In this document: one piece after another, positions 5,751 through 17,664 of the stretch
Layout of the letters: the number at the start of each line of letters is the position of its first letter
Position numbering within the stretch: position 1 is the first letter of the stretch
Source of the DNA: Sporosalibacterium faouarense
Lineage (GTDB): Bacteria; Bacillota; Clostridia; Tissierellales; VENL01
Assembly (NCBI RefSeq): GCF_016765695.1
Contig: NZ_JAETGO010000061.1
Location: forward strand, 1-43,712
Direction: 5' to 3'
DNA length: 43,712 nucleotides
Program-made: the position numbers and the translations under genes
The notes under the pieces: generated by a model
Told to the model about the DNA's origin: nothing
What the model saw: only the letters and a program-made list of their open reading frames with translations
Database searches by the model: none

Positions 5751-5770
5751 TTAAGTTTTTAGTCACCTTT

Positions 5771-5799
5771 ATTATAGGTAATAACTATATGTTTGTCAA
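5771..5799 (-). promoter_or_regulatory. Sigma-70-type promoter of the cobalamin operon
   Basis: On the minus strand, TTGACA (5794-5799), a 17-base spacer and TATAAT (5771-5776) match the consensus exactly. Transcription would start near 5764, just before the aptamer. It sits only 12 bases past the modC stop, with no terminator between them. Confidence 0.85.
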
Positions 5800-5810
5800 T
5801 AAAATCCTGC

Positions 5811-6500
5811 TTATATTATTTTTCCATTTTTCAAATGTATTATATCGTCTCCAAACATTTTGCTTTCCTCATAGTTATGAGTAATAAGGATAGTTGGAAT
5901 CTTAAACTTCTCTTTAAAAAACTTAAACTCCTTATAAATAATCTTCTTTGTATCTACATCTAGTGCAGAAAATGGCTCGTCTAAAAGCAAAAGATCCGGT
6001 TTTATTACAATAGCCCTTGCCAAAGCCACTCTTTGCTTTTCACCACCGGAAATGTCCCTTGGGTATTTCTTCTTTAAATGTTTTATTCCAAAAGTCTCTA
6101 TTATATATTCTGAATAATTAATAAGTTTTTCTCTATGAGTTTTATCTTTGTACTTAGATTGATTTTTAATACCATACATAATATTTTGAGAAACCGTTAA
6201 ATTAGGAAATAAAGCATAATCTTGAAATAAATACCCAATATTTCTTTTTCTTATAGGTACATTAACTTTAGAATAAAAAGTGCTATTATCATCTTCTTTT
6301 ATTATGTTATTAAATACTATATTGTCACCTATAACAATTCTGCCTTCATCTGGAGTAGCTATACCAGTTATACAATTAAGTATAGTGGTTTTTCCAGCAC
6401 CTGATTCTCCGTGTATAACTAAAGTTCCTTGATTAAATCTGTAATTAATATCTACTGAAAAATCATCTAACTTTTTCCTGATTTCAAAGCATATTTGCAT
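5811..6500 (-). CDS. modC: Molybdate ABC transporter ATP-binding protein, short form
   Basis: 229 residues from the chosen start. The ATPase powers molybdate (or tungstate) import through ModB. Motifs: Walker A GESGAGKTT, Q-loop FQDYALFP, signature ISGGEKQRVALARA, Walker B LLLLDEPFSALD and the switch histidine in ILITHNYEE. I chose ATG at 6500 because GAAGGTG lies 7 bases upstream and MQICFEIRKKL matches ModC N-termini; an ATG at 6536 in frame has no such site. Classical ModC is about 350 residues with a C-terminal Mop/TOBE domain. That domain is absent here, while the divergent regulator has one. Confidence 0.85.
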   Translation of the reverse strand: MQICFEIRKKLDDFSVDINYRFNQGTLVIHGESGAGKTTILNCITGIATPDEGRIVIGDNIVFNNIIKEDDNSTFYSKVNVPIRKRNIGYLFQDYALFPNLTVSQNIMYGIKNQSKYKDKTHREKLINYSEYIIETFGIKHLKKKYPRDISGGEKQRVALARAIVIKPDLLLLDEPFSALDVDTKKIIYKEFKFFKEKFKIPTILITHNYEESKMFGDDIIHLKNGKII

Positions 6501-6539
6501 TTTATAGCACCTTCTTTTCTGATATGTCTGGTACATAAG

Positions 6540-7211
6540 TTATTTTTTATTTCCTAAATAATTTCTTTTCTTTGCCCACGTATTCAATCCAAATATCAAT
6601 ACAAAGCTAAATATTGTCATTACAAATACTAAAGTGTTTGCAACCTCTGTTTTTCCTGACTCTACTGCAAAATAAATGGCAGTTGGTATAGTTTGTGTCT
6701 TTCCATAAATATTTCCTGCTACCATAAGTGTTGCACCAAACTCCCCTATGGCTCTAGCAAAGGAAAGTACTATGCCACTTACAATTCCTGGCCATGCAAG
6801 AGGAAAAACAATAGTTCTAAATACCTTCCACTCACTACTCCCCAAGGTTCGTGCTGCATTCTCATAAACAGGATCTATGACAGCAAAGGCTGCTTTCACA
6901 TTTTGATACATTAGAGGAAGAGAAACTATACAAGCTGCAATTACTGCTCCTACCCAAGTAAATACGACTTGAATTCCAAAATACTCTAATAAAAGTCTAC
7001 CAATAATACCTCTCTTACCCAATACAATTAGTAGAAGATATCCCGTTATTGAGGGGGGCAGAATTATTGGCATAGTGAGTATACTCTCCCAAATATTTTT
7101 GCCCCTAATACTCTTTTTATTAAGTATATACGCAAAAAATACTCCGAAAATAAAAGAAAAAACTGTAGCTATACTAGCAATTTTTAATGAAAGTAAAATA
7201 GGTGAAAGCAT
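6540..7211 (-). CDS. modB: Molybdate ABC transporter permease
   Basis: 223 residues, normal for ModB, with five to six membrane helices. The coupling loop is clear: ENAARTLGSSEWKVFRTIVFPLAWPG (about 118-143), the EAA motif that docks on ModC. The later RAIGEFGATLMVAGNI segment is characteristic of ModB and related molybdate, tungstate and sulfate permeases. The ATG overlaps the modA stop as TAATG and has no strong ribosome site of its own, implying translational coupling. Confidence 0.93.
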   Translation of the reverse strand: MLSPILLSLKIASIATVFSFIFGVFFAYILNKKSIRGKNIWESILTMPIILPPSITGYLLLIVLGKRGIIGRLLLEYFGIQVVFTWVGAVIAACIVSLPLMYQNVKAAFAVIDPVYENAARTLGSSEWKVFRTIVFPLAWPGIVSGIVLSFARAIGEFGATLMVAGNIYGKTQTIPTAIYFAVESGKTEVANTLVFVMTIFSFVLIFGLNTWAKKRNYLGNKK

Positions 7212-7984
7212 TAGTATATCGTAAATCCGTATTTTTCAAATGTTTTTTTTGCATAATCTGTATCAAGAAATTTATAAAATTCCTTAACTTGCTCTTTTTC
7301 TTGACTTCCTTTTATAATTGCTACAGGATAAACAATAGGATCATGACTTTCTTCAGCTACCTCAGCAATGATTTCTCCTGTTTCAAGCATTACTGCATCG
7401 GATTTGTACACCAAACCACAATCAACATTTCCTGTTTCAACATATTGAAGCACTTGCCTTACATCCTTTGCAAATACCAGCTTGTCCTTAATTTGTTCCC
7501 AAATTCCCATGTATTCTATAGTCTGTTGAGCATATTTCCCTGCTGGAACAGAGTCAGGTGTCCCTATTGAAATTGATCCTACAGAATCGTTAGTTAACGA
7601 CTCTAATGTAACTTTATCACTTTTTTCATACGCTGCTATTAATACTAATTTATTTCTCAATAAATTTTTTCTAGATTCAATATAAATAAGTTCCTCATCT
7701 TCTAATTTATCCATATGTGACTTAGAGGCAGAAATAAATAAATCACATGGGGCTCCCTCTTCAATCTGTTTTCTTAATGTTCCTGATGCAGCAAAATTAA
7801 TATGTAATACATCATCACTTCTATTAGCATATTCCTCTTGAATTTCTGTAAGAGCATCTGTCAAGCTTGCTGCGGCTGAAATACTGATAGTATGCCCTTG
7901 AGTATCATCAATAGTTTTATTACACCCCATAAAAACAATCACAGAAATCAATATAAGTACAAAGACCAATCTTACTTTTCCCAT
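7211..7984 (-). CDS. modA: Molybdate-binding lipoprotein
   Basis: 257 residues, the extracellular oxyanion receptor of the ModABC importer. It has a lipoprotein signal (hydrophobic 5-18, lipobox FMGC with lipidated Cys21). The mature start ISISAAASLTDALTEIQ is the classic ModA strand and anion-binding serines; FAASGTLRKQIEEGAPCDLFISAS follows, also typical. A GTGGAGGG site precedes the ATG. It is the first gene of modABC and diverges from the TOBE regulator at 8176. Substrate choice between molybdate and tungstate cannot be read from the sequence. Confidence 0.92.
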   Translation of the reverse strand: MGKVRLVFVLILISVIVFMGCNKTIDDTQGHTISISAAASLTDALTEIQEEYANRSDDVLHINFAASGTLRKQIEEGAPCDLFISASKSHMDKLEDEELIYIESRKNLLRNKLVLIAAYEKSDKVTLESLTNDSVGSISIGTPDSVPAGKYAQQTIEYMGIWEQIKDKLVFAKDVRQVLQYVETGNVDCGLVYKSDAVMLETGEIIAEVAEESHDPIVYPVAIIKGSQEKEQVKEFYKFLDTDYAKKTFEKYGFTIY

Positions 7985-8065: not shown

Positions 8066-8104
8066 CAGTAATACTAATTTATACTATATTCAATATCTTG
8101 TACC

Positions 8105-8133
8105 TTGTCAATGGATTTAAAATCATTTATTAT
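8105..8133 (+). promoter_or_regulatory. Promoter of the HTH-TOBE regulator gene
   Basis: TTGTCA (8105-8110), 17 bases, TATTAT (8128-8133). One mismatch per hexamer at ideal spacing, about 43 bases before the ATG at 8176. Confidence 0.6.
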
Positions 8134-8175
8134 GATATTATAAAGATTAAATCATTACTTAAAGGAGAATCTACC

Positions 8176-8700
8176 ATGAAGGAAGAAAAACTGTATACTC
8201 CAGAAGAGCTTTCCGAAAAATTAAAGCTTTCTAAATACACTATATATGAAATGATAAAGCGTGGCGATATTCCTGCTTACCGTATTGGCAGGAGTCTTCG
8301 TGTTTCAGAATCTCAGCTTAAGCTTTATTTTATAGAAACTAAGAAAGTGGAAAATGTTTATAACGCAGAGATTATTACTGAAGATGATTCTACCTACGCT
8401 TTGACTAATGGAATAAAAATTAGAGTTTCAACAGAATTAAACGGTCGTGTAAAAATATCTATTCCACCAGAAGATATCCTTATAAGCATAGATACTTTTA
8501 CAAGCAGTGCTCGAAATATGTTTAAAGGAACCGTTAAATCTATAGATATTAATGAGAATAAAGTAAAATTACACTTAGATATTGGCATCCCTATTCTAGC
8601 CTTAATTACAAAACAATCTATGGATGAAATGAATATAAAAAAGGGAGATGAACTCTACGCTGTTTTTAAAACCATGTCAGTTAGAGTTATTAACTTATAG
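8176..8700 (+). CDS. Excisionase-type HTH fused to a TOBE/Mop domain; likely molybdate-responsive regulator
   Basis: 174 residues. About 4-50 form a MerR/excisionase-like winged helix (LYTPEELSEKLKLSKYTIYEMIKRG then IPAYRIGRSLRVSES). About 110-174 form a TOBE/Mop-like domain (MFKGTVKSIDINENKVKLHLDIG...DELYAVFKTMSV), the fold that binds molybdate or tungstate in ModE. ATG at 8176 is chosen because AAAGGAGA lies 7 bases upstream; an in-frame extension to 8098 covers the promoter. Its divergent position next to modABC suggests it senses intracellular oxyanion and controls the importer in place of ModE. DNA target and sign of control are inference. Confidence 0.82.
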   Translation: MKEEKLYTPEELSEKLKLSKYTIYEMIKRGDIPAYRIGRSLRVSESQLKLYFIETKKVENVYNAEIITEDDSTYALTNGIKIRVSTELNGRVKISIPPEDILISIDTFTSSARNMFKGTVKSIDINENKVKLHLDIGIPILALITKQSMDEMNIKKGDELYAVFKTMSVRVINL

Positions 8701-8725: not shown

Positions 8726-8757
8726 TAGAAAAAACACATAGAAAAATCTATGTGTTA
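8726..8757 (-). terminator. Terminator after the HPr gene
   Basis: Perfect 10-bp stem AACACATAGA/TCTATGTGTT (8733-8742 and 8747-8756), loop of four bases, followed on the minus strand by a T-rich run. It ends the levR-HPr transcript. The plus-strand side lacks a T run, so it is a poor terminator for the regulator gene. Confidence 0.8.
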
Positions 8758-8777
8758 AATTAATATGGATATTATCT

Positions 8778-9041
8778 TTATTCTCCAAAACTACTTATTA
8801 TCAGTCCTTTTAAGGACTGAATACTCTCTTTTTCATCATAACCTTCTGCTTCAATTATTATTTTATCTCCGCATTTAGCTCCCATACTCAAGATGCTCAT
8901 TATACTCTTAGCATTGTATTTATTTCCTTCTTTAATTATATTAATTTCTGAACTAAATTTATTAGCTTCTTTCACAAACATACTTGCTGGTCTTGCATGT
9001 AGACCTGACTCATTCTCTAACTGCAGCTCTACTTTATACAT
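8778..9041 (-). CDS. HPr-family phosphocarrier protein
   Basis: 87 residues, full length for HPr. It carries phosphate from Enzyme I to EIIA proteins and PRD regulators. His15 lies in the GLHARPA active-site motif and Ser46 in NAKSIMSILSMG, the site used by HPr kinase in Firmicutes. GGGGGG precedes the ATG. It lies 20 bases after the LevR-type gene and closes the PTS operon. Whether it is the cell's general HPr or a dedicated paralogue cannot be told from this window. Confidence 0.92.
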   Translation of the reverse strand: MYKVELQLENESGLHARPASMFVKEANKFSSEINIIKEGNKYNAKSIMSILSMGAKCGDKIIIEAEGYDEKESIQSLKGLIISSFGE

Positions 9042-9061
9042 TTTATCCCCCCATTTAAAAT

Positions 9062-11863
9062 CTATTTATACTTCTTATTTCCATTAATAACTTGAAGTGC
9101 ATAACATAGCTCGTCATCAGCTATATCTATATTGTAAACTTTTTCTAATTTGACGATAGATTTTCTCATTCTTGAGAATTCCTCACTGTGTTTAGTTATG
9201 AACGATTCAATATCATCAAATATAGCCCGTTGTCCAGTAATAACCCTTTCTATCATGAATCCTAAATGTATAGTTAGATTAGTAATTAACGCTTTATCTT
9301 TATTTAAACTATGAAGGTTTAAATCATTAATAAATTCTCTTATATATATTACGGCTTTTTTAGGGTTTATATATAATGAATACTCTTCAAGCATTTCTAC
9401 TGAAGTATCATAGCATGATTTAGGTTGAGATATATCTCCGTCATCACTCTTACTCTCAATAAATTTATAAAATCTATATCTAGTTTTCTTATTCATAACA
9501 TCTTCCATTGAAAAAAAGGGAAGGTCATCTTTAGGTTTAATATTTCCTACGCAACAAATGATTTCATAATCTTCTTGGAGCTTCTTATATTCCGCAGTAT
9601 TACTTTTAATAGCCATATAATTCATTGTAATTATTTTTATATCATTATTATCATTTTCTTGCAGGATGTTTAAAAGTATGTTTTTTAACATAATACTTGT
9701 GCCTTTACCTGTAGCACAGACTGTCATTATAGCTTTTTGTCTTTTTATGGATTTCTTGGTTTCGTGTTGATCAGCAATAGAAAAATAAATTTCATCCAAG
9801 CTATCATCTTTATATAATACCTTCCTTAATGTCTCCAACACTAAGGGAGTAGAGACTTTATGAATAGTCCTAGTAACAATACCTGTTTCATCTGTTATTC
9901 TTCTGCCAAAATCTTTGAGTGATCCCATATCAACAAGTATTATTACCCCTTTCCCCTTATCAATTGCCTTTGCCATAGCCAATGCCTTCTGATACACTTC
10001 TCCTACATCCTTCTCTAAAGGCATATCAATAGCCTTAACAATATCAGAGTTTAATAATCTATTACATACACTTGCCATACTTGAAGCAGTGCTATTTCCA
10101 TGGCTAATTATTAATACACCTATCTTATCATCCTTAGTAGTTTCTATTTCACTATTTGCTAATAGAATAGCAATAAATCCATTTTCATCAATAGGAATAG
10201 ATAGACTAAATTTTTCTTCGATTTTCTTAACCATTAATGATGCAACCTGATACTCTCTATTATAAATTTCTCTTATCTTAGATAACTCATGATTTACTAT
10301 TGGTTTTTTTAATTGAACTCTTTCTATTAGTGAATTTAAATGAAAAGCGAGACTAAATAAGATTCTATTATCAAATTCCTTATTTAATTCATTAGAAGCA
10401 AAATTAATTAACTCAACTGTAAAATCTACTATTACTTTGTCTAATATTTTATATAGCTTTCTTACATTAAAGTTTTGGTAATTAAATCTCTTTATTATAT
10501 TTTTAAAATAATTTTCTATTTCTTTACTAATCTCAATATCAATTTTCTCTTGACTTAGTCCTTTTTCCTTAAGCTCTGAAAGCCTTTCAGTTATTTTAAT
10601 ATATACATTCTCACTTGAGACTTTACGATCATATTGTTTCTTCTTCGACGGATAAATGCTCATATCTTCATGAAATATATTTAGATATTCTTGGGTATCT
10701 GTATCTAATTTATTTAGATTAAAAATAGAATCTTTAATAAACTTGGGTAATAAATCAAACTCAATTTTTAAGTCCTCTTCACTTTGTAAATATCTTAAAA
10801 ATGCCCTAGCACAAATCAATTTAATATCCGACTTTAACTGACCAATATTACCTTTACACTCATATATCACAAGAGCTTTTAACACTTCTGAAGATACTAT
10901 TAGCTTTCGATTAATTCTTATAGCTTCTTCAATAAAGAGATTTTCAATTATATTCATTCTTTCTCCGATATCCTTCTCCGATAATGGCGCTAATGAGATT
11001 ATTACAGGTATCCTTCTTAAGAAGGTTTTTAATAACACTTCTTGAGGATCTTCAGTGGTAGCAGCTATTATTAGGACATCACTTTTCCTAGCATTTTCAG
11101 TTTCACCTAATCTATGAAATTCTCCGTTATCCATAAGATAGAAAAGCATTTCTTGTCCATCAGGAGGCAATCTATGAACTTCATCTAAGAATAAAATACC
11201 TCCATTAGCTTTTTCAACTAATCCAACCTTATCCATATCTGCACCAGTAAAAGCTCCTTTTACATGACCAAATAATTGTGATAATAAAAGCTGAGGGTTA
11301 TTGTAATAGTCAGAACAGTTAAATGAGATAAATGGATAGGCGTCCTCAGAAAGATTTTTTGCTTTTTTAGCATATAAATACATTGTATTTGCAAATGTGG
11401 TTTTTCCCACTCCACTTGGGCCAATAATTAAAGTATGTAAGCCATTAGGAGGGTACATAATAGCAGCTTTGGCTTGATCGATTTGTGTTTTTAAGCTAGA
11501 GTTACTTCCCACTAACGCTTTAAATGGGTCACTAGCTTCTAAATGATGGATTTCTTTAATACTATTTAATAAATCATATATCCCTTGACTACTATATTCT
11601 TGATGAATTTTACTATTTGGTAATAGACATGCTAAGCCATCAGTGGCTATAAATTTAACTGGCCTACTATTTATTTTTATAAGCTTCTCATCTTTAGTTA
11701 GTGTGTTTAGCAAAGTACTTGCATTATTTCTAATTATTCCTAGCTCTTCTTCTATTTCCTTTGCCTCGACGCCTATTTCCTTTCCATTTAACAAACAACT
11801 CTTAATCCTCTCACAGGATGTTTCTTCCTTTATATAATTATATACTTCATCAATCTTCTTCAT
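9062..11863 (-). CDS. LevR-type sigma-54 transcriptional activator with PRD, EIIA and EIIB domains
   Basis: 933 residues. Order: N-terminal winged helix (about 20-75); AAA+ domain (110-360) with Walker A GPSGVGKTT at 148-156, the sigma-54 contact loop GAFTGA at 203-208 and Walker B GGILFLDE at 221-228; PRD1 (about 460-575, His508); mannose-type EIIA (580-700, His588 in IISHGN); galactitol-type EIIB (709-800, Cys716 in VCATGKG); PRD2 (825-930, His866). This is the LevR/MtlR-like plan in which PTS phosphorylation of PRD histidines sets activity. AAAGGAGGG precedes the ATG. It should activate the -24/-12 promoter at 17504-17520. Confidence 0.92.
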   Translation of the reverse strand: MKKIDEVYNYIKEETSCERIKSCLLNGKEIGVEAKEIEEELGIIRNNASTLLNTLTKDEKLIKINSRPVKFIATDGLACLLPNSKIHQEYSSQGIYDLLNSIKEIHHLEASDPFKALVGSNSSLKTQIDQAKAAIMYPPNGLHTLIIGPSGVGKTTFANTMYLYAKKAKNLSEDAYPFISFNCSDYYNNPQLLLSQLFGHVKGAFTGADMDKVGLVEKANGGILFLDEVHRLPPDGQEMLFYLMDNGEFHRLGETENARKSDVLIIAATTEDPQEVLLKTFLRRIPVIISLAPLSEKDIGERMNIIENLFIEEAIRINRKLIVSSEVLKALVIYECKGNIGQLKSDIKLICARAFLRYLQSEEDLKIEFDLLPKFIKDSIFNLNKLDTDTQEYLNIFHEDMSIYPSKKKQYDRKVSSENVYIKITERLSELKEKGLSQEKIDIEISKEIENYFKNIIKRFNYQNFNVRKLYKILDKVIVDFTVELINFASNELNKEFDNRILFSLAFHLNSLIERVQLKKPIVNHELSKIREIYNREYQVASLMVKKIEEKFSLSIPIDENGFIAILLANSEIETTKDDKIGVLIISHGNSTASSMASVCNRLLNSDIVKAIDMPLEKDVGEVYQKALAMAKAIDKGKGVIILVDMGSLKDFGRRITDETGIVTRTIHKVSTPLVLETLRKVLYKDDSLDEIYFSIADQHETKKSIKRQKAIMTVCATGKGTSIMLKNILLNILQENDNNDIKIITMNYMAIKSNTAEYKKLQEDYEIICCVGNIKPKDDLPFFSMEDVMNKKTRYRFYKFIESKSDDGDISQPKSCYDTSVEMLEEYSLYINPKKAVIYIREFINDLNLHSLNKDKALITNLTIHLGFMIERVITGQRAIFDDIESFITKHSEEFSRMRKSIVKLEKVYNIDIADDELCYALQVINGNKKYK

Positions 11864-11972
11864 ATTACCCTCCTTTCCATCATTATTTTTTCTACTAATT
11901 TAAAGATTTCATTGAAGCTTTTTTTAATTTTTCTCAAAAGATTTATCATGTAGATATAATTTTATAAATCTA

Positions 11973-12194
11973 TTATTTATGCCTCTCATCTACTTCTATA
12001 ATTTTATCAGTTTTTTTAGACATAATTTTAAACTTGTTAAATTGCTTTGGCAAAGGGATATTATCACTATGTCTTTTAAGATATAGTACCAATGCTAAGG
12101 TACCTATTGCCACATAAATATTTTTTGTAAAGAAAGTGATAATCAAAAGAGCTGTAGCCATTACAACGAGAAAATACCATTCCCAAACCTTCAT
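11973..12194 (-). CDS. Small membrane protein of the PTS operon, unknown
   Basis: 73 residues; not recognised. A hydrophobic stretch at about 5-42 could form two short helices (YFLVVMATALLIITFF, then NIYVAIGTLALVLYL). A basic tail with many lysines would lie in the cytoplasm. AAGGAGTTGAGTTAA precedes the ATG, so it looks expressed. It is 16 bases after the first aldolase in an otherwise metabolic operon, and 109 bases before the regulator. It could be an accessory subunit of the EIIC, but no motif shows this. Confidence 0.6.
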   Translation of the reverse strand: MKVWEWYFLVVMATALLIITFFTKNIYVAIGTLALVLYLKRHSDNIPLPKQFNKFKIMSKKTDKIIEVDERHK

Positions 12195-12210
12195 TTAACT
12201 CAACTCCTTT

Positions 12211-12825
12211 TTAGAAATATGCAGGCTCTTCAAAAGAGCTTGCTTGTAAAGCTACATATGCATTTGTCTCTACTCTCTCTAACAAATCATAAGCCTTATA
12301 AATATCTTTATCCGCAATAAGTATTCCATGTCTTCTTAATAGAGCAACTACACCATGCTTCTCTATTTCATCTTTCCTACTTTTGAAGTATTCAGTAGCT
12401 ATCTCTGCCAATTCTACACTGCAAGCCTTACCATAAGGAAGCGTAGGTATCTCTCTAAGCTTCTCACATGCTTCATAGAAAATAGGCATATCTTTACCCA
12501 TACAAGCATATACCATAGCATATTTAGGATGGGCATGTATAACTGTCATGGCTCTAGGTACTTCCTTCAATACTCCTATATGCATGTTTGATTCTCTAGT
12601 GATACCACCATTTCCTTCTATTTTATTTAAATTATAGTCTAGCACAAGAATTTCCTCGGGCTTTAATCTACAAAACTTTCTTTGAGACATTAAAGTTGGA
12701 GTCATAATAACATGTTCATCGTTTATCCTTATAGAAATATTCCCTCCAGCTGCATTGGTGAGATTTCTATCAAACATTATTCTAGCTATTTCACAAATTC
12801 GCTCTCTTTCTTTCAAATATAGCAT
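12211..12825 (-). CDS. Class II aldolase/adducin-family sugar-phosphate aldolase (FucA/AraD-like), first copy
   Basis: 204 residues. The family is zinc-dependent and cleaves ketose 1-phosphates to dihydroxyacetone phosphate plus an aldehyde, or epimerises pentulose phosphates. Seen: the phosphate-binding NAAGGNISIR loop (about 24-33), acid/base region GGITRESNMH, zinc ligands HAHP (near 97-99) and the late RRHGIL histidine. The length suits fuculose-1-phosphate aldolase. AAGGAGTAG precedes the ATG. A second, diverged family member lies upstream at 14522-15154, so one of the pair may act on a different intermediate. The substrate cannot be assigned. Confidence 0.85.
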   Translation of the reverse strand: MLYLKERERICEIARIMFDRNLTNAAGGNISIRINDEHVIMTPTLMSQRKFCRLKPEEILVLDYNLNKIEGNGGITRESNMHIGVLKEVPRAMTVIHAHPKYAMVYACMGKDMPIFYEACEKLREIPTLPYGKACSVELAEIATEYFKSRKDEIEKHGVVALLRRHGILIADKDIYKAYDLLERVETNAYVALQASSFEEPAYF

Positions 12826-12839
12826 TTATATCTACTCCT

Positions 12840-13772
12840 TTATATGTATTGAATTCTAACATCCTTAAGAAATCCTAGAGCTTGATCTATATCAAAATCG
12901 GAACTCCCTTCCTTAGTAGCCTTTGATGCACTTATAGCTGTAGCAAATCTAAAAACTTCTTCCAATTCTTTTTCTTGTGCCATCATAGCTACAGCCCCTC
13001 CTAAAAAAACATCTCCACATCCTGTATCATTTACTTCTCTTATCTTTGGTGGATATACTCGCAATGTTTTATCCTTTGTACTGATTATACTTCCTTCCCT
13101 ACCAAGAGATAGAGCTATAACCTCTACACCAATTTCATTTATTCTTTTTAATTCCTTGATATATTCCTCTTCATCAGCTAGTGATTTATTTACCATTTCA
13201 TTAAACTCTGCTTTGTTTGGTTTAATTAAATCAACCTTTGCTTCTATAGCCTCTTTTAAATATTCTCCACTCACATCTACTACAAGTCTGCCACCATTAT
13301 CCTTTACTGTATTCAATAACTCTCTATATTTCTCCACAGTAATTTTAGGAGGGGGCCCACCAGCAAACACTACTATATCGTCCTTTTTTACTAGATTACT
13401 AAGTTTATCCTTTACTCTATTAAATGTATCATCTTTTATTCCAAAACCCCTCTGGGTTATCATATAGCTTCCTTCTTCATCCTCTGGAACTATTATAAAG
13501 CTTTCTCTAGTTTCATTTCCCTGTTGCCAAACATAATCGCATTTAACATTTTTAGCTTCTAAAAGGTTTTGAACTTTTTTGCCATTTTCTCCTGCCAATA
13601 TACCTGTAGCAATATTTGTGATATCCATACTTGATAGGACAACAGAAACATGAGTGGCCTTTCCACCGATATCATAAATTAATTTCTTCACTTTATTATT
13701 GTGGTTTTTTACAAGCTTATTCACTGAGATAACCTTATCTAATGCTGCATTGAGAGTAACTGTATAAATCAT
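12840..13772 (-). CDS. PfkB-family 1-phosphofructokinase/tagatose-6-phosphate kinase-like sugar kinase
   Basis: 310 residues from the chosen ATG at 13772, preceded by AGAGGTGACAG; an in-frame ATG at 13805 would run into the upstream gene. The start MIYTVTLNAALDK is that of the FruK/LacC subgroup, as are GGKATHVS and FAGGPPP. The catalytic signature VNDTGCGDVFLGG sits about residues 245-258, with the base Asp in GCGD. It phosphorylates a sugar phosphate such as fructose 1-phosphate or tagatose 6-phosphate. The operon context gives no direct hint which. Confidence 0.88.
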   Translation of the reverse strand: MIYTVTLNAALDKVISVNKLVKNHNNKVKKLIYDIGGKATHVSVVLSSMDITNIATGILAGENGKKVQNLLEAKNVKCDYVWQQGNETRESFIIVPEDEEGSYMITQRGFGIKDDTFNRVKDKLSNLVKKDDIVVFAGGPPPKITVEKYRELLNTVKDNGGRLVVDVSGEYLKEAIEAKVDLIKPNKAEFNEMVNKSLADEEEYIKELKRINEIGVEVIALSLGREGSIISTKDKTLRVYPPKIREVNDTGCGDVFLGGAVAMMAQEKELEEVFRFATAISASKATKEGSSDFDIDQALGFLKDVRIQYI

Positions 13773-13791
13773 AATACTGTCACCTCTTTTT

Positions 13792-14508
13792 TCATATTTC
13801 TTCATCTCCTAAATTGAAATAATCCTTTATTTTTCTAAAATCAGTATTTAAGATATCATCTTCTGTTAGTCCACAATATTCAGCAAAGCGTAATCCATTA
13901 TCAAACTCACCTACTTGAAGAGGATAATGGGCATCTGAATTTACTAGAAACTTGACTCCCTGCTTACTGCAGCTTAAAACCATATCCTTAAATCTTTCCC
14001 AATTTTCTTCATCCTTGGCAAGTGCCCTGTTATTTATTTCAATAGCAGTTTTTTTCTCTAATAAAACAGGAATTATCTCATCTATATCTATTGAATAATA
14101 TGGATAGTTCAAGTGAGCTATTGATTTAACATTATATTTTAGCAAACATTTTTTCAGTGCCTTAGTATTTAATATTTTTCCTTTATCTTTCCACGAAAAT
14201 GGATGGAAAGATGCAATGACAAATTTGAGCTGATTTATAATTGACTCTGGTAAATCCATAGATCCTTCGCAATCTACAATATTAGCCTCTACTCCTGGAT
14301 ATATAATCAACCCAGAATCAGATTGAACATTATCAATCAAACTTTTAAAGTAATAATCATGAGCTGATGCTTCCATTTTAGGACCGTGTTCAGTAATAGC
14401 TATACATTTTAAATCCTTCTCGATAGCTACCTGTACAACTTCTCTGATTGTCCCAAACGCATCTCCACTAGCTATGGTGTGGATATGAAAATCTCCTATT
14501 AAATTCAT
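13792..14508 (-). CDS. PHP-domain metal-dependent hydrolase (YcdX-like)
   Basis: 238 residues, one PHP domain. Metal ligands are visible in order: GDFHIHT near 6-11, ITEHGP (about 38-43), the ASFHPFSW segment, AHLNYPY and the terminal NSDAHYP. The family forms a trinuclear zinc site and acts as a phosphatase or phosphoesterase. CGAGGAGAAACT precedes the ATG. It sits between the second aldolase and the kinase with 13-19-base gaps, so it is co-transcribed with the sugar genes; it could remove phosphate from a pathway or dead-end sugar phosphate (inference). Confidence 0.82.
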   Translation of the reverse strand: MNLIGDFHIHTIASGDAFGTIREVVQVAIEKDLKCIAITEHGPKMEASAHDYYFKSLIDNVQSDSGLIIYPGVEANIVDCEGSMDLPESIINQLKFVIASFHPFSWKDKGKILNTKALKKCLLKYNVKSIAHLNYPYYSIDIDEIIPVLLEKKTAIEINNRALAKDEENWERFKDMVLSCSKQGVKFLVNSDAHYPLQVGEFDNGLRFAEYCGLTEDDILNTDFRKIKDYFNLGDEEI

Positions 14509-14521
14509 AGTTTCTCCTCGT

Positions 14522-15154
14522 TTATGGATGCATTACAGCATCAAATTCTTCTTGAGGTATAGCTTCTGGAAGCTTTCCTCCTCCAATCACCATTGAACAA
14601 TAAGCTATTTCAGCAACATCTTCAACGTATTGAGCTTTAAGATATGCATCTTCTAGATCCTTCCCTACTGTAATTACTCCATGCTTTTCTAATAGACATG
14701 CATCAGATTCCTTTAATGGTTCTATGATGCTATTAGCCAATTCTTGAGTTCCTGGTCGTCCATATTTAGCAATAGGAGTTCTTACTCCATATGCTACAGC
14801 TTCAAATACTACTGGCTTTATTTCTAATCCTTGAACTGCAAATGCAGTAGCATAATGAGAATGGGTGTGGCATACTCCAAAAACATCATCCCTTTGTTTA
14901 TAAGCTACAAGATGAACCTTCAATTCACTTGATGGCTTTACATCTGATTTAAGCTCTATAATATTACCTTCTATATCTACTACAGCTATATCTTCTTCTT
15001 TAAGTACTTCACGAGCAACTGCCGATGGAGTAATCAGTATGTATCCTGTCTCATGATCCCTTATACTGAAGTTTCCAGACTTATGCTTACATAACCCTTC
15101 ATTATCAGCTCTTTTAGCAATTTCAACAACTTTTTTCTTTAAATCATTTAACAT
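14522..15154 (-). CDS. Class II aldolase/adducin-family sugar-phosphate aldolase, second copy
   Basis: 210 residues from ATG 15154, preceded by TAGGAGTGATAAAT; an in-frame upstream ATG at 15202 lacks such a site. Seen: KHKSGNFSIRD in the phosphate-loop position, PSSELKVH, zinc ligands HTHSHYATAF, and LLEKHGVITVG with the late histidine. It differs widely from the copy at 12211-12825, so this is not a recent duplication. It is the first non-transport gene of the operon. FucA, AraD and related activities are all possible. Confidence 0.85.
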   Translation of the reverse strand: MLNDLKKKVVEIAKRADNEGLCKHKSGNFSIRDHETGYILITPSAVAREVLKEEDIAVVDIEGNIIELKSDVKPSSELKVHLVAYKQRDDVFGVCHTHSHYATAFAVQGLEIKPVVFEAVAYGVRTPIAKYGRPGTQELANSIIEPLKESDACLLEKHGVITVGKDLEDAYLKAQYVEDVAEIAYCSMVIGGGKLPEAIPQEEFDAVMHP

Positions 15155-15214
15155 ATTTATCACTCCTATCAAATTATTATGAGGAGCATTCCTGCCCCTC
15201 ATTTATTCCATTAT

Positions 15215-16579
15215 TTATGCATTAGTGCTTAGCTCTTGTTCAGCCTGTTCTTCCCTCTTACTCATATGCTTGTAATACCATACAAACAATGCCAACCATG
15301 CAATTAGAACTCCTAATCCTACAATATTTCCATTTATGATATCTGCTCCTTGAGAAAATACCCATCTAAATACTGGCATCTCCATACCGTTCCATGTGAT
15401 TAGTTGATTAGCTGGAATATCTATTGTTCCAACATCTCTACCAAGCTTAGTTATAGTTGGAGCAAAGGTTGTTGCAACATATAGGAAAATAGGCGTAGTA
15501 ATTACTCCTAATATAATCATTCTAAGTAGGTTTTTACCCGTTACAATTAAAGCTGGTACTATAAAGCAAAGATTTATTATACCACCGAATGGTAATGTTC
15601 CATTTCCAGGTAATATAACTGCCATAAGTAAAATAACAGGAATTAAAACAATAGCTGCAACCCATAACTCAGGTTGACCTGCAAGGAAAGGCCAGTCCAA
15701 GCCAATATAGAATTCTCTACCTGGGAACCTCTTTTTCATAAACTCTCCAGCAGCATCAGAAATTGGCGCCAATGCTTGCATAAATAGCTTTGCTACCATA
15801 GGGAACAACATTAAAGCTGTTGCTGCTTGAACTCCTAAAGTAAGAGTTGATTTGAAATCATATCTAGCAAATAGAGCTATTAATATTCCTACAATAAATC
15901 CCATAATATGATTTTCTCCAAATATACCTATCTTTTGTTTTAATTTAGCTGCATCTATATTTAAGTCCTTTAATCCTGGAATAAAATCTAAAATTCTATT
16001 AATTGGTGCTAAAATAACTGCAAATAAGCCCATGGAGTGTGGTAACGCTATTCCAGGTATTTTTGTTATTTTATAAACTTGTTTTTGAGTTAAGTCAGCA
16101 TTTTTCAGTTCAAATACAACTTGAATTCCTGCTACCACAAGAGCTGCTGGTAGACTTCCTGTAACTCCTACAACTAAAACTGCCGTAAGTATTTTATTCC
16201 AAACATTCCACATGTCTACGTTTAAGCAATTAGTCCATCCAAAGCCTAGCATTACTAAATTTATTACTATTTGAATTGGGAAAATAAAGAAAGCATATGG
16301 CCATGCCCATGCTATAGCTGCCAAAGGTGTCCAACCTAAATCTAATGCATTTAGCTGTAATCCAGTATTATTTACGAAAGCCTCGGAAGCCGGACTTATG
16401 GCTCCAAACATAAAGTCCAAAACCATACTCATTCCTAAGAATGCCACTCCTAAAGTAAGTGCTGATGTAAACGCTTTCTTAAGCTTCATCCTAATAATAA
16501 GACCTATAATAATCATTAGTGCTGGTAAAAACACAGCTGGTCCTAAATCCAAAATATAATTAACAATTTGCTTTAACAC
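15215..16579 (-). CDS. PTS EIIC, galactitol (GatC) family
   Basis: 454 residues with about ten membrane helices, the length of GatC. It forms the sugar channel of a PTS permease. GatC family features include the start region ILDLGPAVFLPALMIIIGLIIRMK, the WAWPYAFFIFPIQIVIN helix and the PHSMG and GENHIMGFIVG segments. The start is GTG, with AGGGGG 7 bases upstream. EIIA and EIIB genes lie just upstream in the same order as in gat-type operons. The family also transports substrates other than galactitol, so the sugar is not assigned. Confidence 0.9.
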   Translation of the reverse strand: MLKQIVNYILDLGPAVFLPALMIIIGLIIRMKLKKAFTSALTLGVAFLGMSMVLDFMFGAISPASEAFVNNTGLQLNALDLGWTPLAAIAWAWPYAFFIFPIQIVINLVMLGFGWTNCLNVDMWNVWNKILTAVLVVGVTGSLPAALVVAGIQVVFELKNADLTQKQVYKITKIPGIALPHSMGLFAVILAPINRILDFIPGLKDLNIDAAKLKQKIGIFGENHIMGFIVGILIALFARYDFKSTLTLGVQAATALMLFPMVAKLFMQALAPISDAAGEFMKKRFPGREFYIGLDWPFLAGQPELWVAAIVLIPVILLMAVILPGNGTLPFGGIINLCFIVPALIVTGKNLLRMIILGVITTPIFLYVATTFAPTITKLGRDVGTIDIPANQLITWNGMEMPVFRWVFSQGADIINGNIVGLGVLIAWLALFVWYYKHMSKREEQAEQELSTNA

Positions 16580-16609
16580 TTTTCTTCCCCCTTATTAAAC
16601 AGATTAAAT

Positions 16610-16891
16610 CTACCCTTTAAGTGTCTTTTCTACTTCCTCCAACGCCTCGTTCATTCCCATTCCTGTTAAAAATGGGATACCACTTATTACTGGGACATCA
16701 AATTTTGTAGATGTATTTGGTGTTATTGATATATATAGGTCACAGTTTTTAATATATGTATCTAGTGATTTGATATCTACCGCCTCAACTTCTGCGTCTA
16801 TCCCCCTTTGCTCTAACAAGTCAGCAACCTTGGATGCTACTGTCTGCGAAGTTGCCACCCCTGAACCACATGCTACTATTATTCTTTTCAA
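16610..16891 (-). CDS. PTS EIIB, galactitol (GatB) family
   Basis: 93 residues from a TTG start at 16891 with an AAGGGGGTG site just upstream; this gives the usual GatB length and start (MKRIIVACGSGVATSQT). A longer in-frame reading from 16939 adds 16 residues with no family match. Cys8 in VACGSGVATS is the phosphocysteine that receives phosphate from EIIA and passes it to the incoming sugar. It is co-transcribed with EIIA (78 bases upstream) and EIIC (30 bases downstream). Confidence 0.92.
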   Translation of the reverse strand: MKRIIVACGSGVATSQTVASKVADLLEQRGIDAEVEAVDIKSLDTYIKNCDLYISITPNTSTKFDVPVISGIPFLTGMGMNEALEEVEKTLKG

Positions 16892-16969
16892 TACACACAC
16901 CCCCTTAGTTAAATAATCTATATACTCTTCTGTCATCAAAAGTAATGTCCATTACCAGTTCAACCCCTT

Positions 16970-17443
16970 TTAAAAGACCTGTGTTTCTAGAATATCTATT
17001 ACCTCTACTACTTCTGTGCAACTTTTTAATGAAGTTAGTATTTCTTTGTTACTAAATATATCCATTAACTTTTTTAAAACATCCACCTGTTGCTCTGGAT
17101 TATCTATAGCCATTACAAAAACAAGCTCTGCAGGTATATCATTAACACCATTTCCCATCTCCTTAAAGAATACTGGCTCTTTTAGATTTGCAACTAAAAT
17201 TGCTGGTTTAATAACATACTCAGGCTTTGTATGGGGTAGTGCAACCATAACACCTGGTGTAGGCAATCCTGTTGGATATACTTTTTCCCTTTCTATAACA
17301 GCATCTTCAAATGATTCTTTTGCATATCCTTTTTCTATTAATTGTGCAGATAATTTTTTAAGTAAATCTTCATAATCTTTTGCTTCTACATTAAATAAAA
17401 TCATGTTTGGATCAAATAATGATGAAATTGCACTAGTATTCAT
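16970..17443 (-). CDS. PTS EIIA, fructose/mannitol/galactitol type (GatA-like)
   Basis: 157 residues. The active histidine is His71 in VALPHTKPEY, which accepts phosphate from HPr. GVMVALPH and the LVFVMAID...QQVDVLKKLMDIF region are typical of EIIA family 2. ATG 17443 is chosen over the in-frame GTG 17452 because AAGAGGTG ends 6 bases before the ATG. It is the first gene of the sigma-54 PTS operon, about 61 bases from the -12 element. Confidence 0.92.
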   Translation of the reverse strand: MNTSAISSLFDPNMILFNVEAKDYEDLLKKLSAQLIEKGYAKESFEDAVIEREKVYPTGLPTPGVMVALPHTKPEYVIKPAILVANLKEPVFFKEMGNGVNDIPAELVFVMAIDNPEQQVDVLKKLMDIFSNKEILTSLKSCTEVVEVIDILETQVF

Positions 17444-17503
17444 TCTATACACCTCTTATATATTAGATTTTTTATCTAAAGTTCTTCTTTAGCAATTTAA
17501 AGT

Positions 17504-17520
17504 TGCAAAGTTTATGCCAA
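17504..17520 (-). promoter_or_regulatory. Sigma-54 (-24/-12) promoter of the PTS operon
   Basis: The minus strand reads TTGGCATAAACTTTGCA. It contains TGGCAYR, four bases, TTGCW, with GG and GC separated by exactly ten bases. Only one promoter of this type was found, and it lies before an operon encoding a GAFTGA-containing activator, which makes the assignment strong. Expected start about 12 bases downstream, near 17493. Confidence 0.9.
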
Positions 17521-17525
17521 TTTAT

Positions 17526-17609
17526 TGCATAGTTTATAAACATTGGTATTATCAATATTTAATATTCAATTATGCACTATTTTTCCTTGTACTTAATTAG
17601 TGCATAGTT
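17526..17609 (-). promoter_or_regulatory. Candidate upstream activator sites for the LevR-type protein
   Basis: A 9-bp inverted repeat TATGCACTA (17571-17579) and TAGTGCATA (17598-17606) has an 18-base spacer. The half-site TGCATAGTT recurs at 17526-17534 and 17601-17609. They sit about 10-90 bases upstream of the -24 element, where an enhancer-binding protein would bind. The protein-site link is inference. Confidence 0.6.
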
Positions 17610-17623
17610 CTAAAAGCTAAATT

Positions 17624-17664
17624 AGCCAAAAAAAGCAAAAATAGAGACGATATCGTCTCTATTT
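17624..17664 (-). terminator. Terminator after the SLH/YcdB-like gene
   Basis: A perfect 26-base palindrome at 17639-17664 (AAATAGAGACGAT and its complement), followed on the minus strand by TTGCTTTTTTTGG. It separates the upstream surface-protein gene from the PTS promoter region. The plus side has a shorter T run. Confidence 0.8.

Follow-up and report, generated by a model that had tools for sequence, protein, structure and literature searches.

The phosphotransferase system (PTS) operon lmo2093-lmo2099 of Listeria monocytogenes is described in PMC3721983 as EIIABC, a PfkB-family kinase, a “fuculose-phosphate aldolase”, a hypothetical protein and an antiterminator. One aldolase is listed there, and no PHP protein, HPr or second aldolase; the paper suggests that Lmo2094 could be a tagatose-1,6-bisphosphate aldolase, and no proof of the operon's substrate was seen. 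In the DrdK-DrdI-DrdA dihydroxyacetone phosphate (DHAP) shunt, DrdA (structure 6btd) splits 5-deoxyribulose 1-phosphate to DHAP and acetaldehyde, according to PMC6079011. A 43,712-nucleotide contig of Sporosalibacterium faouarense (NZ_JAETGO010000061.1; the whole stretch is called the window here, and is contig C50 of a 4.12-Mb host assembly that is 97% complete) carries a ten-gene operon that is a fuller version of the lmo2093-2099 type. The core of galactitol (gat)-type EIIABC, PfkB and aldolase is common to both and already known (compare the Bacilli loci L110-L115, below), whereas the window adds a second class II aldolase (AldA), a PHP-domain hydrolase, HPr and control by a LevR-type sigma-54 activator, and lacks the BglG-type antiterminator. 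For Lmo2094 and Lmo2093 the likeness is one of description, not of sequence. With a probability of roughly one half, this operon regulates itself and serves the breakdown of a single PTS sugar, in all likelihood a ketohexose, for which AldA and the pair formed by PfkB and the other aldolase, AldB, would act as parallel cleavage routes.

The operon runs along the minus strand from 17605 to 8733 as a single run of genes, in the order EIIA, EIIB, EIIC, AldA, PHP, PfkB, AldB, a 73-aa membrane protein, a LevR/DagR-like activator and HPr:

17572..17605, minus strand, inverted repeat ATGCACTA-N18-TAGTGCAT, predicted from exact-match counts and spacing to be the upstream activator site of the LevR-like protein
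17504..17519, minus strand, sigma-54 -24/-12 promoter TGGCATAAACTTTGCA, score 10 of 11
16970..17443, minus strand, EIIA (PTS_EIIA_2, gat-like), PF00359 116 bits, ATG start at 17443
16610..16939, minus strand, EIIB with a CGSGVATS loop, PF02302 51.5 bits; NF007643 (galactitol IIB) 54 bits, below its cut-off of 95
15215..16579, minus strand, EIIC of the gat superfamily, in a subfamily of its own, PF03611 253 bits; TIGR00827 315 bits, below its cut-off of 542
14522..15154, minus strand, AldA, class II aldolase of FucA/DrdA type, PF00596 166 bits
13792..14508, minus strand, PHP-domain hydrolase, YcdX-like, a predicted phosphoesterase, PF02811 41 bits; 1m65 107 bits
12840..13772, minus strand, PfkB-family phosphosugar kinase, PF00294 131 bits; TIGR03168 255 bits, above its cut-off of 216
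12211..12825, minus strand, AldB, second class II aldolase, PF00596 119 bits; NF004979 237 bits, above its cut-off of 216
11973..12194, minus strand, small membrane protein of 73 aa, with similar small ORFs in relatives
9062..11863, minus strand, LevR/DagR-like sigma-54 activator, with GAFTGA, two PRD stretches, and EIIA-man and EIIB domains
8778..9041, minus strand, HPr phosphocarrier (GLHARPA), PF00381 99 bits; TIGR01003 95 bits, above its cut-off of 47.9
8733..8756, minus strand, intrinsic terminator-like stem at the operon end, 10 pairs followed by a T run

Intergenic gaps are 13-60 nt with the preferred starts, except for 109 nt ahead of the activator gene, and -14 to 30 nt if the longest ORFs are used instead. 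The AldA ORF opens at 15202 and its preferred start is the ATG at 15154, preceded by AGGAGTG; that of PfkB opens at 13805, with the preferred ATG at 13772 preceded by GAGGTG. All the genes named in the initial annotation (gat-type EIIA, EIIB and EIIC, two aldolases, PfkB, PHP, a small membrane protein and a LevR-type activator) are present on the minus strand between 8733, the end of the stem after HPr, and 17609, 4 nt past the inverted repeat; the HPr gene was absent from its list.

Two proposed cleavage modules beside one type of transporter

Gene order in relatives agrees with the initial annotation in that the gene set recurs without a dehydrogenase; the layout does have a precedent in Listeria, and it falls into two separable modules. 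Loci fetched from relatives are numbered L (132 in all, L003 and L131 being copies of the window), genomes G and host contigs C. The AldA scan covered 80 named loci, all of them by translated searches, with EIIC counted within 8 kb (L040 and L041, with a distant EIIC of 28-29% identity more than 8 kb off, count as lacking it). EIIC is present in 40 of the 80: 26 of these carry DhaK/DhaL, three PfkB and AldB, and three MtnK/MtnA; DhaK/L and PfkB occur together in none of them. The 40 loci without EIIC include 11 with MtnK/MtnA and seven with DhaK/L, five having both. Searches with PfkB (E<=1e-50) gave matches in 2/299 and 7/398 genomes. Eight of the nine loci found in this way contain EIIC and AldB, with AldB next to PfkB, whereas L116 has neither, and AldA is nearby in 0/9; in L113 a DhaK-DhaL pair additionally lies on the opposite strand, some 7 kb off. 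AldB searches (E<=1e-25) gave 3/348 and 3/60 genomes, the host being in both, and PfkB adjoins AldB in all four genomes with at least 42% AldB identity (the host, G226, G349 and G383) but not in G059, whose match is at 35%.

Each module also occurs alone. L007 has AldA and PHP without PfkB-AldB; G226 (L093, whose contig ends in EIIB) has PHP-PfkB-AldB with no AldA in between; and PfkB-AldB is the sole aldolase module beside EII genes in L093, L099 and L110-L115. AldA-like genes lie elsewhere in G176 (<=48% identity) and G226 (<=41%); of seven Bacilli genomes, five yield no AldA-like gene at E<=1e-25, and the other two yield one each, at 31-37%. EIIC identity to the window is 77-87% in two AldA+PHP loci, 73-85% in three loci with both modules, 50-69% in eight PfkB-AldB loci, and 46-60% in 27 AldA-DhaKL loci, L117 included. 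EIICs 68-87% identical to that of the window thus occur with AldA and PHP without PfkB-AldB (L007; L004 is cut by its contig end, in PHP), with PfkB and AldB and no AldA alongside (L093, L099), or with both modules (L005, L006, L011). Since such similar EIICs carry either module, the two modules probably treat the same sugar. DhaK His56, Asp109 and His218, whose roles are presumed here, are kept in 39/39 DhaK ORFs of the fetched loci (E. coli's own not counted). Either kinase, DhaKL or PfkB, could take care of the three distal carbons, a hint that the sugar is a ketohexose. Such a sugar fits best: it satisfies both modules, and a 5-deoxypentulose satisfies only the AldA module.

How could the two modules work together? 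EI, HPr and EIIABC would import the sugar as a phosphate, and the host genome encodes one full EI. AldA would then cleave the ketose 1-phosphate directly to DHAP and an aldehyde, which might need a triose kinase; in parallel, PfkB would add a second phosphate and AldB would split the bisphosphate into two triose phosphates. PHP would be a phosphatase acting on a sugar phosphate. The initial annotation had proposed that a ketose or deoxy sugar 1-phosphate is cleaved directly. AldA fits this, but PfkB and AldB, which travel together as a separable module, are left unexplained, and PfkB would find nothing to do on a deoxy sugar that has no second hydroxyl open to phosphorylation. Should AldB be a ketose-bisphosphate aldolase, a tentative idea taken up below, the window operon, with both modules on one transporter, would be the bacterial match to fructose breakdown in the liver, set alongside the classical bisphosphate route.

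Several relatives show further arrangements of these genes. L117, on an IncN plasmid of E. coli (NZ_CP027125.1, 3528-10655), reads EIIA-EIIB-EIIC-BglG-AldA-DhaK-DhaL-HPr, and AldA homologues of 48.8% identity head the plasmid search, among the best 25 of 209 matching records. Two DhaK-DhaL pairs flank a single aldolase in L020, L032 and L058. L007 (884-9493) has a tandem EIIB pair, and its own HPr and a putative EI-like ORF behind LevR. In L110, L111, L114 and L115 (Bacilli) the PfkB-AldB operon is followed by an FGGY kinase and a putative phosphoglycerate-mutase-like ORF; in L110, the only one compared, the kinase is nearest to the xylulokinase model (220 bits, cut-off 380).

Aldolases, kinase and hydrolase

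AldA has DrdA (6btd, 109 bits) as its best solved relative, followed by pneumococcal FucA (97), E. coli FucA (1fua, 77) and AraD (60). It keeps the metal ligands H92, H94 and H155 and the catalytic E73 (E. coli FucA numbering; the roles of the compared positions are taken to be as in FucA), and is under the cut-off of each of the 25 NCBIfam models listed of 29 matched, so that it passes no specific aldolase or epimerase model among these. In a tree of 83/103 aldolase ORFs and eight references (20 loci duplicating others, the window or references left out, as were AldA ORFs missed by simple ORF picking in 13/80 loci), the AldA clade mixes PTS-linked and MtnK-MtnA-linked members, branch support not being given. 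The resemblance to DrdA and the presence in MtnK-MtnA loci argue for direct cleavage of a ketose 1-phosphate, and the assignment of AldA as a ketose-1-phosphate aldolase yielding DHAP and an aldehyde is thus supported at the level of sequence. Compared with the shunt of PMC6079011, AldA is of the same enzyme type and its relatives adjoin MtnK and MtnA, whereas the window has a PTS in place of the kinase and isomerase, and AldA is 34% identical to DrdA over the stretch compared. A role as L-ribulose-5-phosphate epimerase (AraD) is rejected on account of a Glu in AldA, as in AldB, where AraD has Asp. Another class II aldolase lies on C39 of the host, beside MtnA and, apparently, an MtnP gene, so the window AldA is not the host's sole candidate DHAP-shunt enzyme.

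The PfkB kinase has Lin2199 of L. innocua as its nearest solved chain (220 bits, against 118 for the next protein), and it shares with it the same sugar-loop His; lmo2095 presumably corresponds to Lin2199. It passes only TIGR03168, the hexose-kinase subfamily, the 1-phosphofructokinase and tagatose-6-phosphate kinase equivalogs matching below cut-off. Its sugar loop is GGKATH, so that the FruK loop GKGIN becomes GKATH. His replaces Asn in 13/13 sequences compared (L116 and 12 from such operons, the window counted among them) and in Lin2199, whereas FruK, E. coli PfkB and the 1-phosphofructokinase of C58 retain Asn. Because His stands where FruK has Asn, the substrate is probably other than fructose 1-phosphate.

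AldB passes a single NCBIfam model, NF004979, titled “hypothetical protein”. Its predicted structure (pLDDT 89.5) is nearest to DrdA (6btg/6btd, Z 26.5), then to S. pneumoniae and E. coli FucA (25.6-24.1), YgbL (24.1) and AraD (22), a likeness of fold that gives no proof of function. Arg77, Glu118 and Lys122 are invariant across 11 sequences, and it is a guess that Arg77 or Lys122 holds the second phosphate. To our knowledge, the activities on the FucA/AraD fold are limited to monophosphate aldolases, epimerases and a few others. It is suggested tentatively, as an idea more apt to fail than to hold, that AldB is a ketose-bisphosphate aldolase on this fold and that, with PfkB, it makes up one of two cleavage modules able to stand in for each other on a PTS ketose not yet described; the bisphosphate idea has already been voiced for Lmo2094 (PMC3721983).

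The PHP protein matches YcdX (1m65, 107 bits) and has Asp in place of the YcdX His in the first metal motif region. PGAM-like ORFs lie near AldA in 4/40 EIIC loci and HAD-like ORFs in 12/40, which makes a phosphatase role for PHP plausible.

Control of the operon

The initial annotation described the set as sigma-54-driven and self-regulated, and promoter, palindrome and an activator gene within the operon lend this support. The -24/-12 site lies 52 bp after the inverted repeat, and a repeat ATGCACTW-N16..18-WAGTGCAT is found 53-54 bp before the -24 box in L004, L006 and L009. The exact repeat occurs once in the 4.12-Mb host genome, at the window operon (a reversed-pattern control gives 0), and, among the 132 fetched loci, only in the window copies L003 and L131 and in L004, L006 and L009; the other 127 have none. 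Sites scoring 10 or 11 precede EIIA in five of seven loci scanned (window, L004, L006, L007 and L009), against a background of 0.087 sites scoring at least 9 per kb per strand in the same seven loci, real sites counted in. Two sigma-54 factor genes are present in the host genome, at C88:46938 and C83:237936.

A Pfam scan of the activator finds Sigma54_activat, two PRD stretches, EIIA-man and PTS_IIB; LevR itself ends with a second PRD. The features of the LevR family are there: a sigma-54 domain with GAFTGA, PRDs, PTS-like domains, and a sigma-54 promoter with an upstream repeat. The likeness to LevR/DagR activators lies in these domains, promoter and repeat, and a score of 571 bits against the TransRegDagR cut-off of 1400 indicates that the protein is not DagR itself. 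The activator gene accompanies the repeat in L006 and L009, and the L004 contig stops before that position. We infer that the LevR-like activator binds the inverted repeat; controlled by PTS phosphorylation, it would fire the sigma-54 promoter when the sugar is available. In Listeria, Lmo2094, Lmo2097 and Lmo2098 are reported in PMC3721983 to be under negative control by sigma-L, and the Listeria operon therefore does not share positive control by sigma-54. EIIA is preceded in L005 by an activator gene and in L011 by transketolase-like genes.

The LevR-like gene of L006 (13269-16081) is in two ORFs, through mutation or sequencing error. In L011, a Tissierellia relative, a putative pair of transketolase-half genes (5764-7631) stands immediately 5' of EIIA. 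A second terminator-like stem at 17639-17664 of the window is listed on the plus strand, and T runs follow it on the minus strand too.

Weighing the alternatives

Could this be an ordinary galactitol or polyol pathway whose dehydrogenase is located elsewhere? The EII components are gat-like: EIIA, EIIB and EIIC belong to the superfamilies found in E. coli gatYZABCD (PF00359, PF02302, PF03611), as the initial annotation held. The EIIC fails the galactitol model TIGR00827 (315 bits, cut-off 542), however, and is only 35% identical to its match in the E. coli gat region, and the locus has no gatD, gatY or gatZ. A GatY/KbaY-type domain is absent from the nine locus proteins scanned, and the earlier claim that the usual tagatose-bisphosphate aldolase is missing is thus true of the locus, the rest of the genome not having been searched for it. 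The claimed lack of a polyol dehydrogenase also stands for zinc-type enzymes, in the locus and under the same exact site: an ADH_N search, which does not cover short-chain dehydrogenases, finds two such proteins in the genome, neither in the locus. The one on C10 reads as a YhdH-type oxidoreductase, and the one on C58 comes after an EIIB-bearing protein and the 1-phosphofructokinase of another PTS, apparently within that operon. A dehydrogenase elsewhere under the same regulator, which would point to an ordinary galactitol route, was looked for at exact-match stringency; the palindrome is unique in the genome, at the window operon, which leaves no dehydrogenase elsewhere with this exact site. 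Two further EIIC-GAT genes of the host, beside transketolase-like genes on C24 and beside phosphotriesterase- and KDPG-aldolase-like genes on C48, have no dehydrogenase alongside, and L005, L006 and L011 retain the gene set with none adjoining. Listeria has been described with the same layout minus AldA and PHP, and the lack of a dehydrogenase is therefore not peculiar to this genome. Given the two ADH_N contexts and the uniqueness of the palindrome, a galactitol route with a distant dehydrogenase is rejected at that stringency, for zinc-type enzymes and in an assembly that is 97% complete, and the polyol explanation as a whole is hardly credible.

Three further explanations keep a catabolic PTS operon and divide its enzymes differently. 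In a LacC-like pathway, EIIABC would deliver a ketose 6-phosphate, PfkB would phosphorylate C1 and AldB would cleave the bisphosphate, with AldA serving a side product freed by PHP, or a second sugar. This agrees with the TIGR03168-only match of PfkB, with the loci where PfkB-AldB is the only aldolase module beside EII genes, and with the suggestion made for Lmo2094. It is unlikely nonetheless: L007 carries AldA and PHP but not PfkB-AldB next to an EIIC of 77% identity, and a PfkB search of its 3.8-Mb assembly, of completeness not established, yields nothing at E<=1e-30; AldA can therefore stand as the sole aldolase beside such a transporter. A salvage pathway importing a 5-deoxyribulose-like sugar as the 1-phosphate, with AldA releasing DHAP and a small aldehyde and PfkB-AldB reserved for another sugar, would explain why DrdA is nearest to AldA among solved structures and why AldA homologues and an EIIC sit in the MtnK-MtnA operons L010, L012 and L077. 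Such a role is decidedly unlikely, as a 5-deoxypentulose 1-phosphate offers PfkB no terminal hydroxyl, the identity to DrdA is modest, the host has the other MtnA-aldolase set on C39, and DhaKL is found in 26/40 EIIC-AldA loci. AldB might instead be an epimerase or decarboxylase interconverting phosphoketoses ahead of AldA cleavage. Its altered pocket residues, and its place closer to YgbL (annotated in databases as a putative 3-oxo-tetronate 4-phosphate decarboxylase) than to FucA in the midpoint-rooted tree, branch support again not given, speak for this. DrdA and FucA as nearest folds, YgbL tying with the last FucA, and eight loci with AldB and PfkB but no AldA alongside speak against it; Glu73, where AraD has Asp, is kept in AldB and in YgbL and does not discriminate between them. 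A non-aldolase AldB is accordingly improbable.

Several observations also weigh against the preferred reading of one ketohexose cleaved by two routes. AldA departs from FucA at Gly44 (Ala), Tyr113 (Phe) and Phe131 (Pro); AldB has Thr-Arg at FucA Ser71-Ser72 and lacks Gly44, so its phosphate pocket differs from that of FucA. Eight of the 40 EIIC-AldA loci have no DhaKL, PfkB or MtnKA (L004, L007, L015, L018, L022, L036, L043 and L046), and the five MtnK-MtnA-AldA loci without EIIC that carry DhaKL make a triose kinase no simple explanation for a 5-deoxy sugar. The choice of query biases the co-occurrence sets, several contigs are short, and PTS regiochemistry (C1 versus C6) cannot be read from sequence. 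No sigma-54 site of score 10 or 11 was found ahead of EIIA in L005 or L011 in the upstream-region scan, and L005, L007 and L011 have the activator gene without the exact palindrome. Terminator-like sites in the region number five against a shuffled mean of 3.4 (sd 1.8), not above chance. No tested substrate was found for EIIABC-PfkB-AldB or EIIABC-AldA operons in the open-licence literature, mostly titles and the starts of abstracts.

Other known sugar routes differ. The Klebsiella psicose locus, as annotated in PMC6020474, has a permease, a ribokinase-like kinase, an epimerase and a deoxyribose-phosphate aldolase, and psicose gains no support from these other genes. Evolved E. coli is described in PMC10101011 as using D-tagatose through FruA/FruB, FruK and GatY/KbaY, a different aldolase type. 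The main text of a Clostridiales sigma-54 regulon paper (PMC6615313) contains no mention of aldolase, galactitol or fuculose.

In Listeria, the operon of this type carries the annotation of a galactitol system, a label that may misname its substrate. Knowing the sugar would improve the annotation of relatives in Clostridia, Bacilli, Actinomyces, Olsenella and the E. coli IncN plasmid, and could add a rare-sugar route and possibly a new type of bisphosphate aldolase. With natural variants that have AldA only, PfkB-AldB only, or both, purified enzymes offer a direct test of the question.

Other genes and neighbouring observations

The small membrane protein (11973-12194) matched no Pfam or NCBIfam family up to E 1. 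Translated searches find similar ORFs (37-68%) in L005, L006, L007, L009, L011, L098 and L100, and related ORFs in L036, L043, L046, L113 and L115.

In L010 (8608-9945), L012 (8606-9952) and L077 (8621-9952), a gat-type EIIC is flanked by MtnA and the aldolase within a DHAP-shunt-like operon, no EIIA or EIIB being found in the locus; it may transport 5-deoxyribose or methylthioribose as a carrier outside the PTS. The EIIABC set of L088 (5063-10578, equal to host C48) is followed by putative phosphotriesterase-like, KDPG-aldolase-like and creatininase-like proteins and HPr. L008 (124-13328, Fonticella) has an AldA homologue beside ORFs for a putative FGGY kinase, DhaKL and microcompartment-like shell proteins. 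Within the window, next to the operon, a plus-strand gene at 8098-8700 encodes an HTH and TOBE (Mop-like) protein and faces putative molybdate-type ABC transporter genes at 5811-7984.

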